Under the pieces are notes generated by a model. The model was not told where the DNA came from, made no database searches, and was given only the letters and a program-made list of their open reading frames with translations. Positions 8,929 through 17,924 of a stretch of DNA of 64,000 bases are shown here, one piece after another. The stretch comes from Marinicauda algicola. GTDB taxonomy: Bacteria; Pseudomonadota; Alphaproteobacteria; Caulobacterales; Maricaulaceae. The stretch's first letter is position 1; each line of letters starts with the position of its first letter. The stretch covers positions 1,612,001 to 1,676,000 of the forward strand of contig NZ_CP071057.1 in NCBI RefSeq assembly GCF_017161425.1. Reading direction: 5' to 3'. A program made the translations under genes and the position numbers.

Positions 8929-9822
8929 ATGGACTGGGACAAGCTGAAGACGTTTCACGCCGCGGCCGAGGCCGGCTCGCTGACGCGCGCCGCCGAGGCG
9001 CTTCACCTGTCGCAGTCGGCGGTGAGCCGCCAGATCAGCGCGCTGGAGACAGAGCTGGGCGTCAAGCTCTTCCACCGCCATGCGCGCGGCCTCATCACCA
9101 CCGAGCCGGGCCGGCTGCTGTTCGAGGCAACCCAGGAGATCGCCGCCAAGATCGCGTTTGCCGAGGCCCAGGTGCAGGACAGCCGCGACGAGCCGACCGG
9201 CGTTCTGCGCGTCACCGCACCGACCGCGCTCGGCGCGATCTGGCTGGCGCCGCGCCTCGCCCGCTTCCATGAGGCCTTCCCGCTGATCAGGGTGCGTCTC
9301 CTGCTCGCCGATCACGAGCTCGACATCGCGAATCTCGAGGCCGATGTCGCGATCCGGCCCTGGCCTGCGACGCAGAACGACCTCATCCAGCGCAAGCTGA
9401 TGGATGTCAGCCAGCACCTCTACGCCTCCCCGGTCTATCTGGCGCGCCGCGGCACGCCGGAAGGGCCCGGCGATCTCGACCGGCACGCCATGATCGCCTA
9501 CGGGCCGCGCCACCTCGCCCCGATCCCCAATCTCAACTGGCATCTGGTGCTGGGCCGGGAGAAGGGCGCCAAGCCGCGCGAGGCGGTGATAGAGGCGAAC
9601 ACGATCAACGGCATCATGAAGGCCACCGAGGCCGGGCTCGGCCTGTCGGGGCTGCCCGACTACGTGGCGCGCGAGAACGAGAAGCTCACCCGCGTCCTGC
9701 CGGAAATCGACGGGCCGAAATTCGAGGTCTATTTCGTCTATCCCGAGGAGCTGAAGGGCTCGCGGCGCGTCACCGCGTTCCGCGAATTCATGATCGAGGA
9801 AGTCAAGCGCTGGCTCGGGTGA
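8929..9822 (+). CDS. LysR-family transcriptional regulator
   Basis: The 297-residue LysR regulator has an N-terminal winged helix-turn-helix (residues 4-62; 'FHAAAEAGSLTRAAEALHLSQSAVSRQI') followed by a periplasmic-binding-protein-like effector domain beginning near residue 85. It is closest in pattern to the subfamily with 'GVLRVTAPTALG'. The effector cannot be read from sequence. LysR genes usually regulate a neighbour. The only candidate target on the same strand is the damaged SDR gene 200 bases downstream, since the ABC genes lie upstream in the same direction. Confidence 0.93.
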   Translation: MDWDKLKTFHAAAEAGSLTRAAEALHLSQSAVSRQISALETELGVKLFHRHARGLITTEPGRLLFEATQEIAAKIAFAEAQVQDSRDEPTGVLRVTAPTALGAIWLAPRLARFHEAFPLIRVRLLLADHELDIANLEADVAIRPWPATQNDLIQRKLMDVSQHLYASPVYLARRGTPEGPGDLDRHAMIAYGPRHLAPIPNLNWHLVLGREKGAKPREAVIEANTINGIMKATEAGLGLSGLPDYVARENEKLTRVLPEIDGPKFEVYFVYPEELKGSRRVTAFREFMIEEVKRWLG

Positions 9823-9862
9823 CGCGGCGCCGGCGGCGCGGCTCGCCGGAGCGTCCTGCGTC

Positions 9863-9891
9863 TTGACCCCATACGCCTGCGAGCGTATCCA
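9863..9891 (+). promoter_or_regulatory. Candidate promoter with operator ahead of the SDR gene
   Basis: TTGACC (9863-9868), a 17-base spacer and TATCCA (9886-9891) form a sigma70-like promoter. The inverted repeat ATACGC-CTGCGA-GCGTAT (9871-9888) sits across the spacer and -10, a typical position for repressor or LysR control. The same two hexamers at the same spacing occur upstream of the cell wall hydrolase gene (22431-22459, minus strand). Confidence 0.4.
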
Positions 9892-10021
9892 GCCGGCCTC
9901 ACGCCGACCGAGGCGAGGACCCTGACGATGAAGCGTTCCGACTGATCCCACCGCTGCCGCGCACGCCGTGCCGGCATCCGCGCGCCGCCGTGCGCGCATC
10001 GATCAGCGACAGGACTTCATC

Positions 10022-10836
10022 ATGCCAAGACTTCAGGACAGGATCGCGCTCGTCACGGGCGCGGGACGCGGTATCGGCCTTGCCATCGCCGAGGCCTTCG
10101 TGCGCGAAGGCGCGCGCGTCATTCTCACGGACATCGACAGCCGGGCCGTGCAGGCCGAGGCCGAGCGCCTCGGGCCGGCGGCCCTCGCCTTTGCCCTCGA
10201 CGTGCGCGAGGAGGACCAGTGGCGCGCCTGCGCGGCGTTCGCGGCCGGGCGCTTCGGCGGCTCGACATACTGGTGAACAATGCCGGGATCACCGGCTTTC
10301 CCGAAACGCCCGGGCCCCACGATCCCGAGCATCTCGACCTCGCGAGCTGGCGGGCGGTCCACGCGGTCAACAGCGACGGCGTGGCGCTCGGCTGCAAGTA
10401 CGCGATTGTCCTCATGAAGCACCGCGAGGCGGGATCGATCGTCAACATCTCCTCGCGCTCGGGGGTGGTCGGGATCGCGCGCGCGGCCGGCTATGCGGCG
10501 AGCAAGGCCGCGGTGCGCAATCACACCAAGACCGTCGCGCTCTACTGCGCCGAGGAGGGCTATCCCATCCGCTGCAACGCCCTGCTGCCGGCCGCCATCC
10601 TCACCCCGATGTGGGACGCGGTGCTCGGCACCGGGCCGGAGCGCGAGGCGGTGATGGAGCAGATGATCGCCGAAGTGCCGATGCGCTGCTGGGGCATGCC
10701 GTCCGACGTGGCGGAGGCGGCGGTCTATCTCGCCAGCGCGGAGTCCCGCTACGTCACGGGCGCGGAGATCCATATCGACGGCGGAATCCTCGCCGGCAGC
10801 ACGGCGCCGCCGAAACCGGTCAGCGCTTCGGACTGA
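10022..10836 (+). pseudogene. Short-chain dehydrogenase/reductase, frameshifted
   Basis: The N-terminal part ([19 protein letters not shown], the TGxxxGxG cofactor motif) reads in one frame to a stop at 10276. The rest, starting '[13 protein letters not shown]' with the catalytic 'Ser...YAASK' and a C-terminal 'HIDGGIL', reads in the next frame up to 10836. Restoring one base near 10258-10262 (TTC GGC GG_ CTC GAC) gives a normal ~271-residue SDR. So there is a single 1-base deletion, either a real mutation or a sequencing error. The rest of the gene shows no decay, which favours a recent event or an error. Substrate unknown. Confidence 0.82.
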
Positions 10837-13148: not shown

Positions 13149-14105
13149 ATGTCGCTCAGTCAGACCGCACGCATTCTCGCGATCGCCGCGGTATTCACCG
13201 CCGCCCCGGCAATCGCGGCGAACCAGAGCTATTCGACGGGGCCGTATTACGGCTCGGCGCGCATGCCCTATCTCGGAGACCCGTTCCAGGAATGTCGCGG
13301 CCGCCAGAGCGAGCTCGAACTGCGCGCCTGCCTGTCGCGCCTGCACGACGAGGCGCGCTACGACCTGGACTATGTCAACGACCGCCTCGAGCGTCTCGCC
13401 TCCTCCTTCCAGGACGAGGGCGTGCGCGCCTATCACGAGGAAAAGCTGCGCGGTGCGCGCACCACCTGGTCGGCCTATCTCGACTATCACTGCGATTTCG
13501 AGGGCGCGATGCTCGGCGACGACAATACCGAGGTCGGCCTGCAGTCGCTCGCCTGCCAGATCATGATGATGCGAATCCAAGCCTACCGGCTGGACACGCT
13601 GGCGCAGAACATCGACATCGAGATCGTGGACACGCCGGGCACCGACGGCCCGATCGCGGACGTGCGCTGCGAGCAGGGCGATTTCCGAGAATGGCGCGTG
13701 CGCTGCGATGCGCGCGGCAACTATTTCGCCGAGACCGGCACGGGCGGCAACACGCTGCGCCTGGAGCGCAGCGTCAATGGCGGGTTCGACCTGGTGCTGG
13801 CCTCGAGCGTGCACGCCATCGACACCGGGCGCTCGATCAATGTGCGCGTGGATTCCAACCCGACGCTCGATTTCCGAACCACGCCCGGCTACGCCGGACC
13901 GTCCGAGCGCGGCGGCTTCGTGATCGACAACTCGCCCGCGGTGGACACGCTGATCGGCCAGATGCGCCAGGGCGGCCGCGTCGCGGTCGTGTTCTACGAC
14001 ACCGCCGGCCAGGCCCAGGTCGCCAATTTCTCGCTCTACGGCGTGACGAGCGCGCTCGAACACCTGGCCGACCGGGGCCGCGTCTACCGGCGCCCGGCGC
14101 GCTGA
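13149..14105 (+). CDS. Secreted LprI-like (DUF1311) protein with an IalB-like C-terminal part
   Basis: The 318-residue protein has a signal peptide (cleavage near residue 24, AIA-AN). Residues ~45-150 resemble the lysozyme-inhibitor LprI/DUF1311 family, with paired cysteines in 'ECRGRQSELELRACLSRLHDEA', 'DYHCDFEG' and 'LQSLACQIMMMRIQAY'. The C-terminal half ('GGRVAVVFYDTAGQAQVANFSLYG') looks like the IalB/invasion-associated fold. A GGAGGG site precedes the ATG. Its stop codon lies inside sequence homologous to the Rhs core (alignment with the second Rhs copy starts at 14104), so the last few residues may have been replaced when the Rhs fragment arrived. The LprI assignment is moderate and the IalB part is tentative. 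Confidence 0.7.
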   Translation: MSLSQTARILAIAAVFTAAPAIAANQSYSTGPYYGSARMPYLGDPFQECRGRQSELELRACLSRLHDEARYDLDYVNDRLERLASSFQDEGVRAYHEEKLRGARTTWSAYLDYHCDFEGAMLGDDNTEVGLQSLACQIMMMRIQAYRLDTLAQNIDIEIVDTPGTDGPIADVRCEQGDFREWRVRCDARGNYFAETGTGGNTLRLERSVNGGFDLVLASSVHAIDTGRSINVRVDSNPTLDFRTTPGYAGPSERGGFVIDNSPAVDTLIGQMRQGGRVAVVFYDTAGQAQVANFSLYGVTSALEHLADRGRVYRRPAR

Positions 14106-15477
14106 TCTGACGCTCGGCTTCGAATACAACCCGGCCGGCCAGATCACGTCGATGACGCGGTCCAACACGGCCTATTCCTGGGTCAACCACATCAATCTGG
14201 ACACGCTGTTCGGTCATAACGGCCTCAACCAGATCACCTCGATCACCGAGGACGGCGTGGCCCAGACCGCGCCCACCTGGGACGGGCGCGGCAATCTGAC
14301 TTCGTATGCGGGCACGAGCTACGGGTACGATCATTACAACCGGCTGACTTCGGTATCGGGCGGGATCACGCTCTCCTACGACCCGCTGGGCCGGTTGCAC
14401 AGCTATACGACCGGGGCGGGAACCTATGACTCACTCTATGACGGGGCGGCGTTGATCGGAATGTACAATGCCGGTTCGCTGGTGCAGCGTTTTGTGCACG
14501 GGCCGGGCATGGACGAACCTCTGGTGCAGTATTCAGGCGCGGGCACGAGCAACCGCACCTTCCTGCACGCCGACGAACGCGGCTCGATCATCGCCCACAC
14601 CGACAGCGCGGGCAACCGCACCGCCACGCTTGCCTACGACGAGTACGGCAATCCCGGAAGCGGCAATACGGGCCTGTTCCAGTACACCGGCCAGATATGG
14701 CTCGCCAATATCGGCGCGTACTACTACAAGAACCGGTTCTACCATCCCGGCCTCGGCCGGTTCATGCAGACCGACCCGATCGGCCAGACCGGCGGGATCA
14801 ATCTCTATGCGTATGTCGGCGGGGATCCGGTGAATTTTACCGATCCGTGGGGGTTGAGGCGGATATGCAAGACCGGCTCGGATGGTCAGATGGTCGAGGT
14901 GCCTTGCCCTCAATCCTGGACGGAGAAGCAGGCTACGTTAGATCAGCTGCGGCAATCGCTGATGGACAGTATACTGCTTGATTTAGGAATGGGCGCCAGT
15001 GGCAGCGGCGGGCCGGGCGGAAAGGGAAGTAGCGATACTGATGGGAAGCAGGAAGACCAGAAGCCGTGTAACCGCGCAGCTATGATGGCCGGAAATTTCT
15101 TGAGATCATATGGTCATAAGCAGCAGCAGGTTGGCGGCGTGGTGGCACTTGCTGGCGGCACAATTGCCGTGGGAGCCTTACTTTTTCCATTGGATGGACC
15201 GGTCGGTGAAATGGCTGGAGGAGCGGTTGCCGCATCAGGAGGAGTAATGCTCGCCGCGGGTACAATCGCAGATGTCGCGGGTCAGTTTCTACAGGGCTAC
15301 GCCATCGGCGACGCGAATTATGCAATGGGCGGCGTTCTAAAGGAAACGCTGACCCAAGGCGCGCATGACCTCGCCACGGGAGTTTCAGAGAATTTGCGGA
15401 ATTTCTCGAGGGCGCTTGGCCCGACCGGCGCAGCGGCTTCGCTCGTTGACGTCGAAAGTAGGATGCGGAGTTGTTGA
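14101..15477 (+). pseudogene. Orphan Rhs tip 1: 5'-truncated Rhs core plus unique C-terminal domain
   Basis: Reading frame from GCT 14101 ('ADLTLGFEYNPAG') through YD-repeat sequence ('LTSYAGTSYGYDHYNRL', 'LSYDPLGRL') to the Rhs-core hallmark 'YTGQIW...YYYKNRFYHPGLGRFMQTDPIG' and 'NLYAYVGGDPVNFTDPWGL' ending at 14856. After the core comes a ~207-residue unique tip with much lower GC, containing a Gly/Ser linker and Gly/Ala-rich hydrophobic stretches (about 15120-15310). The first ~1000 residues of a normal Rhs protein (signal/PAAR and shell) are absent and no start codon with a ribosome site is evident, so this is a displaced cassette. Rhs tips are toxins released from the core shell. The hydrophobic tip suggests a membrane-active toxin (inference). 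Confidence 0.85.
14104..14856 (+). repeat. Rhs core homology, copy 1
   Basis: This segment aligns with 16038-16827. Long stretches are identical (for example the DNA for 'SNTAYSWVNHINLDTLFG' and 'GNLTSYAGTSYGYDHYNRL'), and both copies stop matching right after 'DPWGL'. Differences are point changes, a few codon gaps and the palindrome inserted in copy 2. Confidence 0.9.
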
Positions 15478-15743
15478 TGATTAATAGTAACATAATTTTG
15501 GTTGCAATTGCTATATACGCAGCATCTGCAGTATCGTTCATTATGTTGCGCCTAAGCGTCAATCAGAATGCGGACCCATTCCTAATAGGCTTAGTCGCAA
15601 TTATGGTATCTATTTTTGCAGGCTTTATCTTTGAAAAGGCTAGGCGAAAAATCTATGAGGACCGTACTGGTGAAATTCTTTCACCATTTTTTTTCTTCTC
15701 GTTTTTTTCTCTATTTTCTGGAATGTTAATAATATTTTATTAA
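15477..15743 (+). CDS. Small three-helix membrane protein, candidate immunity protein for Rhs tip 1
   Basis: The 88-residue protein starts at ATG 15477, which overlaps the stop of the Rhs tip by one base (TGATG). It has three hydrophobic segments (about 3-22, 33-52 and 68-88) with a basic loop 'EKARRKIYEDRTGE' between helices 2 and 3. Base composition is strikingly AT-rich compared with the chromosome. Immunity genes lie directly downstream of Rhs/CDI toxin tips, and membrane immunity proteins usually protect against membrane-active toxins, so position and type fit. No family is recognised, and function is inferred from position only. Confidence 0.65.
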   Translation: MINSNIILVAIAIYAASAVSFIMLRLSVNQNADPFLIGLVAIMVSIFAGFIFEKARRKIYEDRTGEILSPFFFFSFFSLFSGMLIIFY

Positions 15744-15804
15744 TTTTTCGCCCACCGGCGCGCGCGCCTGACCTGGCCGGACGGGTTCTACGTGACCTAC
15801 AGCG

Positions 15805-15848
15805 CAGCCTGTCCTCGGGCTCGCCGTAGGCGAGACCCGGGGAACACC
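15805..15848. repeat. Palindromic insertion 1 in Rhs copy 2
   Basis: The element contains a near-perfect hairpin: CTCGCC-GTA-GGCGAG (15820-15834), extended by GGG/CCC and further pairs to 15813-15842 with one bulged A. It is absent from the expected Rhs protein pattern at this point and adds about 13 residues in frame. Confidence 0.55.
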
Positions 15849-16037
15849 GCCAGCCGTCTCACCCATATCCGCGAGAACGGGGCGACGTCCGGGGTGGGGG
15901 TTCTGGCGACGTTCGCGTACGACACCTACGGGCGGCGCACCAGCCTGACGCGCGGCAACGGCACGGTGACGAACTATGCCTTCGACGCGATGAGCCGGCT
16001 GGACTCCCTGACCCAGAACCTTGCCGGGACGGCCGAC

Positions 16038-16827
16038 GATCTCACGGTCAGCCTGGACTACAACCCGGCCGGCCAGATCACCTCGATGACGCGGTCCAAC
16101 ACGGCCTATTCCTGGGTCAACCACATCAATCTGGACACGCTGTTCGGCCATAACGGCCTCAACCAGATCACCAGCGTGACGAACCAGACCGCGCCGACGT
16201 ATGACGGGCGCGGCAATCTGACTTCGTATGCGGGCACGAGCTACGGCTACGACCATTACAACCGGCTGACCTCGGTCTCGGGCGGGATCACGCTGAGCTA
16301 CGATCCGATGGGCCGGCTGTGGGAATATGCCGGCTCGAGCCTGGGCACGACCCGCTTCCAGTATGACGGGGCGGCGCTCATCGCGGGCTATTCGAGCACG
16401 GGCGCGCTGCGCTTCCGCTTCGTGCACGGGCCCGGCATGGACGAACCGCTGGTCGGCTATGACGGCTCGGGCACGAGCAACCGGTCCTTTTTACACGCCG
16501 ACGAGCGCGGCTCGATCATCGCCCACACCGACAGCGCGGGCAACCGCATCGCCACGCTCTCCTACGACGAATACGGCAATCCCGGCAGCTCCAATACGGG
16601 CCTGTTCCAGTACACCGGCCAGATCGCCCTCTACGACACCGGCCTCTATCACTACAAGAACCGCACCTACCATCCGGGCCTCGGCGTTCGCCGGGCGATC
16701 GATCCCCCGGATCGATCGCCGATCCGGCTCACTCATGCAGACCGACCCGATCGGCGTCGCCGGCGGGATCAATCTCTACGCCTATGTGGGCGGGGATCCG
16801 GTGAATTTTACCGATCCGTGGGGGCTC
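16038..16827 (+). repeat. Rhs core homology, copy 2
   Basis: Direct repeat of 14104-14856. It is longer because of the ~47-base palindromic insertion near 16687-16733. The matching cores flank tip 1 and its downstream gene, so recombination between them could delete or swap tips. Confidence 0.88.
16687..16733. repeat. Palindromic insertion 2 in Rhs copy 2
   Basis: An 11-bp perfect stem GCGATCGATCC/GGATCGATCGC (16695-16705 with 16709-16719) with a CCC loop and outer GCCGG/CCGGC arms. It interrupts the otherwise conserved junction 'HPGLGRFMQTDP' and breaks the reading frame. Its sequence is unrelated to the other palindrome in this copy. Confidence 0.6.
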
Positions 16828-16845
16828 AAGACACGCACAGGATAG

Positions 16846-17505
16846 AGGATCAGGCGGTCAAGCGATTCTGACTGTATTGCGCACTACGGTTACGCTAATC
16901 ACTTCCCACAGGCCAAGGGTGCGGGCGGCGGTGGCTCTTCGTCGTTAGCTGGAGGGAGCGAGGGATTTACATGCAGTGGTCCCCTCAACAATGACAGGTG
17001 CTTGGTCAAGGCGAGTGGAGGTACATGGCCTTGGGGTGGTCGATACCCGGGGGATTTGCGAGGCACAGTGTTTGAATATTTTGTTCCCACTTACGCGGAG
17101 TACGCGGCGTTTAAAAGAAATCACCCGCTTGAATTTGCTCTGGCCGTGAGCTTGCTTGGGTCTGTAGATTTTGTTGACAGTGCCCATGCCCGGAGAGCCT
17201 TGCGGGAGTTTTATTCTACTGCGGAGATGGTTGGTCGAGAAGAGTTTCTTGAGAGGATGTCAGGTGTTGCTGCCAGTGGATGCTCATTGTGCGCTGCTTG
17301 GGCTGAAGCGCACCCCATCCTATCTGCTGCGAATTCCCTATATTCGGTGTACACGATAGCGTCTTCTGTAGACGCCACTATTGAGGCGGGGCGGATGATG
17401 CTATACGGGCCCCAGTTTCTGGGTTGGGAGCTAGCTTGCGACCGCTTTGGTTCGCCGATTACGGCAGAGAGTATTCTTTATGGAGCTGGGAGGCTTGAAT
17501 GCTAA
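16846..17505 (+). pseudogene. Orphan Rhs tip 2: unique C-terminal domain after an in-frame stop
   Basis: The frame that carries the Rhs core end ('NFTDPWGLKTRTG') hits TAG at 16843-16845 and then stays open without another stop to 17505. This gives a ~219-residue tip: a Gly/Ser-rich linker (about 16921-16962) and then a lower-GC domain with 'GGTWPWGGRYPGDLRG', 'EYAAFKRNHPLEFALAVSLLG' and several Cys ('SGCSLCAAW'). The only in-frame start I see is TTG 17002. So this was probably the toxin tip of copy 2, now cut from the core by a nonsense codon. Domain family not recognised. Confidence 0.65.
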
Positions 17506-17924
17506 AAATATTGTCAGTCTTTCTTCTCTCTGCAGTTGCAGTCAGTTGTAGCGCGGTGCCGAGGGAGCAGGGTTTAGCGGTTAATGCGACCGAACTTTTT
17601 CGGGCTCACATTGAAGGTGCTGCTGCTGTTGCGAGAGTTGCTTCTGTCGTCTGTGATAGTTGTTACAGTGATCTCGTAATTGACCCGGCTCGAGAGTTCG
17701 AGTACCTCTTGGGAAAGGCGGCGATTTATTATAGGGAGAATAGTGCCTCCATCGTTATGGATGCATTCCTCGAACGTGAAATTTGCTCACTGTCAATATT
17801 TTCCAGTAATTTTGAGTTTGTGGAGAGGGCGGCCCCGCTTCCGGGAGAGGTCGACGTGTCTTTTGAGGTCTTTATTCAAGAGCTTTTACGCAATGAGCGC
17901 ATCTCCTGCGCGGCCGAGCTATAG
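17499..17924 (+). CDS. Putative lipoprotein, candidate immunity protein for Rhs tip 2
   Basis: The 141-residue protein starts at ATG 17499, overlapping the end of tip 2 by 7 bases. It has a short signal sequence with a lipobox-like end (MLKILSVFLLSAVAVSC, Cys17), so the mature protein should be attached to the inner or outer membrane in the periplasm. The mature part has further cysteines ('VVCDSCYSDLV', 'REICSL', 'ISCAAEL'). Codon use and GC are unlike the chromosome. Periplasmic lipoprotein immunity proteins are known for toxins acting in the periplasm, so the location fits. The family is not recognised and the pairing is inferred from position. Confidence 0.62.
   Translation: MLKILSVFLLSAVAVSCSAVPREQGLAVNATELFRAHIEGAAAVARVASVVCDSCYSDLVIDPAREFEYLLGKAAIYYRENSASIVMDAFLEREICSLSIFSSNFEFVERAAPLPGEVDVSFEVFIQELLRNERISCAAEL

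Follow-up and report, generated by a model that had tools for sequence, protein, structure and literature searches.

Several described toxins act on membranes and are countered by small membrane proteins. Tse5 is an Rhs pore-former that is delivered through PAAR, VgrG and the type VI secretion system (T6SS), and its immunity protein has two transmembrane (TM) segments (PMC9637101, PMC10684867); for the Tse5/Tsi5 pair, both membrane depolarisation and membrane immunity have been shown experimentally (PMC9637101). The CDI ionophores are polymorphic helical membrane toxins borne on CdiA, a carrier exported by two-partner secretion, and comprise an entry domain and a five-helix ionophore domain; downstream of every ionophoric cdiA gene lies a short, highly variable ORF for a hydrophobic peptide, the CdiI immunity protein, and here too the membrane action and its neutralisation have experimental backing (PMC11630599). 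The glycine-zipper toxins EsxX, TelE and TspA, which use the Type VII/LXG carriers of Firmicutes, possess a Gly/Ala-rich hydrophobic C-terminal block with a canonical zipper motif and are likewise matched by membrane immunity (PMC12744356). Finally, the Sec-dependent, T2SS-type RHS toxins, among them Tox-WTIP with its predicted two-helix pore tip, carry their RHS repeats behind a signal peptide (PMC3482391).

Here we describe a candidate toxin-immunity pair in a 64,000-nucleotide stretch (the window) of the complete 3.42-Mb genome of Marinicauda algicola, order Caulobacterales. An Rhs frame, open from 14047 to 15477 and with its first ATG at 14152, contains a core that matches TIGR03696 (Rhs_assc_core) in NCBIfam at E 1.9e-21, and also RHS_repeat in Pfam. 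This core closes with DPIG at 14773 and DPWG at 14842 followed by a Leu, i.e., with an intact self-cleavage motif. The X19 spacing of the motif, present in 77 of 100 cores in a panel drawn from the order, is that of Tse5, which cleaves itself after the equivalent Leu (PMC10684867). In our locus this Leu is the codon 14854-14856, where a preliminary description of the sequence had placed the start of the tip; a freed tip would thus begin at 14857 and comprise 206 aa (207 with the Leu). The locus has the layout of an Rhs polymorphic toxin cassette, namely an RHS-associated core ending in the DPxG pair, a variable tip beyond the core (tip 1) and then a small partner gene. It is nevertheless distinct from a full-length deployable Rhs gene, in which a complete YD-repeat barrel is joined to an N-terminal secretion domain: from the opening of the frame, only ~250 aa of core are encoded, with neither an N-terminus nor a signal peptide. 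The features of the locus are collected in Table 1.

Table 1. Features of the tip 1 cassette, of the adjoining module 2 and of the relatives of tip 1 (coordinates refer to the window).
Feature	Position	Strand	Basis or remark
Fragment of an Rhs core (last ~250 aa), ending in DPIG-X19-DPWG	14104..14853	+	TIGR03696, motif
DPxG-X19-DPxG-L aspartyl-protease self-cleavage motif	14773..14856	+	spacing as in Tse5
Tip 1 of the Rhs frame (206 aa), a candidate toxin acting on membranes	14857..15474	+	ORF reading, relatives
Domain conserved among the tips, from CN... to RSC at the C-terminus	15055..15474	+	alignment with L012/L132, L118/L080, L013/L120
Hydrophobic block rich in Gly/Ala; candidate membrane helices (two) with LDGPVGE between them	15118..15310	+	hydropathy
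TGATG overlap, toxin stop / partner start	15475..15479	+	GGAG at 15467-15470
Candidate immunity protein: 88-aa membrane protein with three helices, GC 34%	15477..15743	+	hydropathy, predicted structure
Second Rhs core copy, broken (module 2)	15750..16845	+	frame changes within core; DPWGLKTRTG immediately followed by an in-frame stop
Reading frame of tip 2 (a toxin other than tip 1), 3' of broken core	17002..17505	+	
Partner of tip 2, a putative 141-aa lipoprotein with lipobox AVSC	17499..17924	+	overlaps tip 2 stop
Tip relative L012/L116/L132 (Glycocaulis albus)			partner 61 aa, 4-nt overlap with tip
Tip relative L118/L080			partner 56 aa, 8 nt after tip
Tip relative L013/L120			partner 91 aa, close after tip stop

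Tip 1 opens with a polar, partly Gly-rich first third, continues into the hydrophobic block and ends with ~50 residues that terminate in ...RMRSC; it has four cysteines, the last of them at the C-terminus, and a GC content of 58%, against about 67% for the window. The preliminary description had singled out a hydrophobic Gly/Ala-rich stretch at about 15120-15310, and this is borne out: the block spans ~15118-15310, and the best 60-residue window of the tip is 47% Gly+Ala and 5% charged. Its 19-residue hydropathy peaks, 2.11 at tip residues 93-111 and 1.54 at 124-142, mark two candidate membrane-spanning helices. We considered and dropped the label "glycine zipper", because GxxxG is not in excess within the block (2 seen, 3.1 expected from shuffles); the three full zipper motifs of tip 1 sit in the Gly-rich linker, outside the block. 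Searches of Pfam, NCBIfam, PHROGs, PADLOC and PDB sequences returned no match to tip 1, and thus no recognised enzymatic family. An AlphaFold2 model built from two input sequences came out all-helical, an outcome that carries little weight given its pLDDT of 39; on the question of a nuclease or ADP-ribosyltransferase fold, we can state that tip 1 matches no such profile, the model being too poor to assign a fold.

The partner gene starts within the stop of tip 1, with a GGAG six bases 5' of its ATG. That it encodes 88 residues, is AT-rich and begins at the toxin's stop had been noted before and holds. The earlier wording, "almost all membrane helix", holds in part: three helices are predicted, at residues 4-28, 34-61 and 70-87 (pLDDT 72), and the hydrophobic peaks reach 2.59, 2.50 and 1.93, but a charged loop at residues 53-66 had been left out. 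Hydropathy and predicted structure thus agree on a polytopic membrane topology, as would suit an immunity protein for a membrane toxin, and the protein belongs to no database family. Both observations of the preliminary description, the hydrophobic tip and its membrane partner, are correct and non-random.

Searches of genomes from the same order revealed three relatives of tip 1, all of them Rhs tips and each in a different other genus. They are 18-26% identical to the window tip and align with it from the CN motif to the extreme C-terminus, so that a further catalytic domain would have no space in the tip. With a family this small (4 members) and this diverged, composition could inflate the alignment of hydrophobic stretches; the match over CN..GN and over the C-terminal ends argues against this. 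All three tips are Gly/Ala-rich, and all three are followed by small, AT-rich partners with 2-3 TM segments. The layout of a tip followed by a small AT-rich membrane protein hence recurs in four genera while the partners have diverged strongly, as a toxin/immunity pair predicts. Weaker tip matches (L014, L015, L016, L122, L123 and L127-L131) were rejected, since none of the frames they hit is an Rhs tip. Scans with tip 1 of general genome contigs, viral contigs and plasmids yielded nothing, and the L012 tip, used as a query, recovered just Glycocaulis albus itself (L132).

We consider it likely that tip 1 is a depolarising toxin that forms a pore or channel, that the 88-aa protein is its cognate membrane immunity protein, and that the two reside in an orphan cassette. 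By analogy, a mode of action like that of Tse5/Tsi5 or of the CDI ionophores appears to be the best reading. With Tse5/Tsi5, the locus shares the DPxG-X19-DPxG core, a tip of ~150-200 aa devoid of an enzyme signature, hydrophobic helices and an adjacent gene for a small polytopic membrane protein, here the candidate immunity protein. It differs in that PDB sequence searches (phmmer and profile) found no similarity to tip 1, in that it is an orphan C-terminal cassette, and in that its partner has three helices instead of two. It resembles the CDI ionophores in following a putative helical membrane toxin with a short hydrophobic ORF, but no carrier of the CdiA kind is present here. In the Gly/Ala-rich block and the putative membrane immunity it resembles EsxX, TelE and TspA, whose zipper motif, in contrast, is not enriched in tip 1; the RxxR and WxTIP motifs of Tox-WTIP are, by eye, absent from the tip. 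As for the steps involved, self-cleavage at the DPxG pair would free tip 1 from the Rhs core, upon which its Gly/Ala-rich helical hairpin would enter the cytoplasmic membrane of the target and make an ion-conducting pore or channel, collapsing the membrane potential. In the producer, the 88-aa protein would sit in the inner membrane and block insertion or assembly of the tip.

To relate tip hydrophobicity to partner type, we used the panel of 100 Rhs tips from the order (L017-L116), which, after clustering and exclusion of two members of the tip 1 family, left 80 representatives, 19 of them with polytopic-membrane partners. In rank tests, the tips with such partners stood below the rest in minimum polar content (P 0.012) and above them in hydropathy (P 0.026) and Gly+Ala content (P 0.007). 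A two-by-two cut gave an odds ratio of 6.6 (P 0.001) with thresholds picked after seeing the data, and we therefore prefer the rank tests. The association is real and not absolute: several membrane-partnered tips lack hydrophobic character, and partners of other kinds occur next to several hydrophobic tips. Together with the like pairing in the three relatives and the lack of an enzyme family, this co-occurrence lends independent support, drawn from sequence comparison, to the earlier proposal of a membrane toxin neutralised by a membrane immunity protein. We also observed a second group of tips (L044, L061, L068, L075, L100, L106, L113 and L114) that have partners with 2-5 TM segments and look beta-rich, with alternating Gly/Val-rich repeats; these are possibly beta-barrel-like membrane toxins.

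The exceptions in the panel bear on a different explanation, in which the hydrophobic block is a translocation segment for membrane entry and the poison is the short C-terminal part, acting in the cytoplasm. In the DNase effector Tde1, a glycine zipper has such a role (PMC10240207), many Rhs tips combine a hydrophobic segment with a soluble or lipoprotein partner (e.g., L060, L058 and L090), and about 50 residues do follow the block in tip 1. These C-terminal ~50 residues are, however, too few to make up a known enzyme, and the searches placed them in no family. Moreover, in 4/4 members of the family the tip is paired with a polytopic membrane protein, never with a soluble one. We thus deem this explanation rather unlikely.

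The surroundings of the cassette raise another alternative. The core fragment recurs 1.9 kb downstream, at 16038-16824, with 84-94% nucleotide identity, where it belongs to the broken module 2. The remaining Rhs remnants of the genome, at 1794-1798 kb and 2279 kb, are fragments, and our search of this genome found no full-length Rhs carrier, which makes the cassette an orphan, a point missing from the preliminary description. It could accordingly be argued that the cassette is a decayed remnant, a truncated Rhs frame and a small ORF with no working product, whose hydrophobicity is left over; the genome is without a full-length Rhs, the adjoining module 2 is broken and module 1 itself has no N-terminus. 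Yet the frames of tip 1 and its partner are intact, with a good ribosome site and overlapping start and stop, which would be unexpected after long decay, and orphan status is compatible with activity of the encoded pair, so we regard decay as an unlikely account. That the 88-aa ORF is an unrelated or chance frame, the tip having another immunity protein or none, is highly improbable: the partner lacks a database family and its counterparts in the relatives are not clearly alignable beyond hydrophobicity, but an open frame of 88 codons arises in only 0.19% of composition-matched shuffles, the frame is coupled to the tip by TGATG, and its position, size class, AT-richness and topology class are alike in 4/4 family loci.

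The pair most likely represents a toxin that forms a pore or channel, together with the membrane protein that counters it, now as a silent spare part. Cassettes of this kind have been described among polymorphic toxins (PMC3482391). Judging from the shared core, the spare tip could presumably be exchanged into a full-length gene, with recombination taking place in the core; we infer that the pair would be deployed only once homologous recombination had joined it to a full-length Rhs gene whose product is Sec-exported, and our search of this genome found no such gene. Other elements were also seen in this genome. Directly upstream of the cassette, an LprI-like (lysozyme inhibitor) gene at window positions 13149-14105 ends exactly at the start of the Rhs homology, and a search of the same-genus genome G082 gave no homologue of it. 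At the genome's second Rhs locus (L008), an insertion-sequence transposase of the integrase-core type lies between Rhs fragments (9047-10762), and an Rhs remnant on the minus strand (13264-14004) carries a Gly/Ser-rich tip that ends in SSCK and is similar, by eye, to that of L075, from a related genus.

With regard to delivery, the full-length Rhs proteins of the order differ from Tse5. All 13 of those inspected (L117 and L133-L144) carry Sec-type signal peptides, as judged by eye; in Pfam, three of their N-terminal regions showed RHS_repeat or DUF6531 and no PAAR; and the T6SS protein VipB (PF05943) was found neither in the M. algicola genome nor in 18 related genomes, which include the carriers of L117 and L133-L144. 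These proteins fit the Sec/T2SS-type RHS toxins (PMC3482391). The pairing of a greasy tip with a tiny putative membrane antidote is a recurrent one in this order, whose 19 tested genomes are without VipB, and the tip 1 family would add to the polymorphic Rhs toxins a new, database-invisible family of membrane-targeting tips. If this is true, pore formation by Rhs toxins, so far known from a T6SS-delivered effector, would extend to Sec-exported Rhs proteins. We tentatively propose, as a wider view that is possible though doubtful, a Sec-exported, T6SS-independent Rhs arsenal in which unrelated tips have adapted to an oxidising envelope route and in which tip 1 founds a pore-forming family, possibly clamped by disulfides during export.

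The cysteines of the tips bear on this route. A Cys occurs within the last four residues in 31 of 96 Rhs tips of the order, unrelated tips among them, where composition predicts 5.3; counted by clusters, the figures are 23/76 and 4.3 (P 2e-10), and cysteine counts are even in 45 of 63 tip clusters (P 4e-4). These features fit an oxidising route and suggest that the Rhs tips of this order are disulfide-stabilised, Sec-exported toxins. A literature search for the C-terminal Cys feature retrieved no relevant paper, which is not proof of novelty. The signature would offer a testable handle on how such proteins exit the cell and enter their targets, processes that are poorly understood. The partner proteins show neither feature (C-terminal Cys in 5, with 5.2 expected; even counts in 28/60); among the 74 partners in the panel, 19 are polytopic membrane proteins and another 19 have a signal-peptide-like or lipoprotein-like N-terminus.
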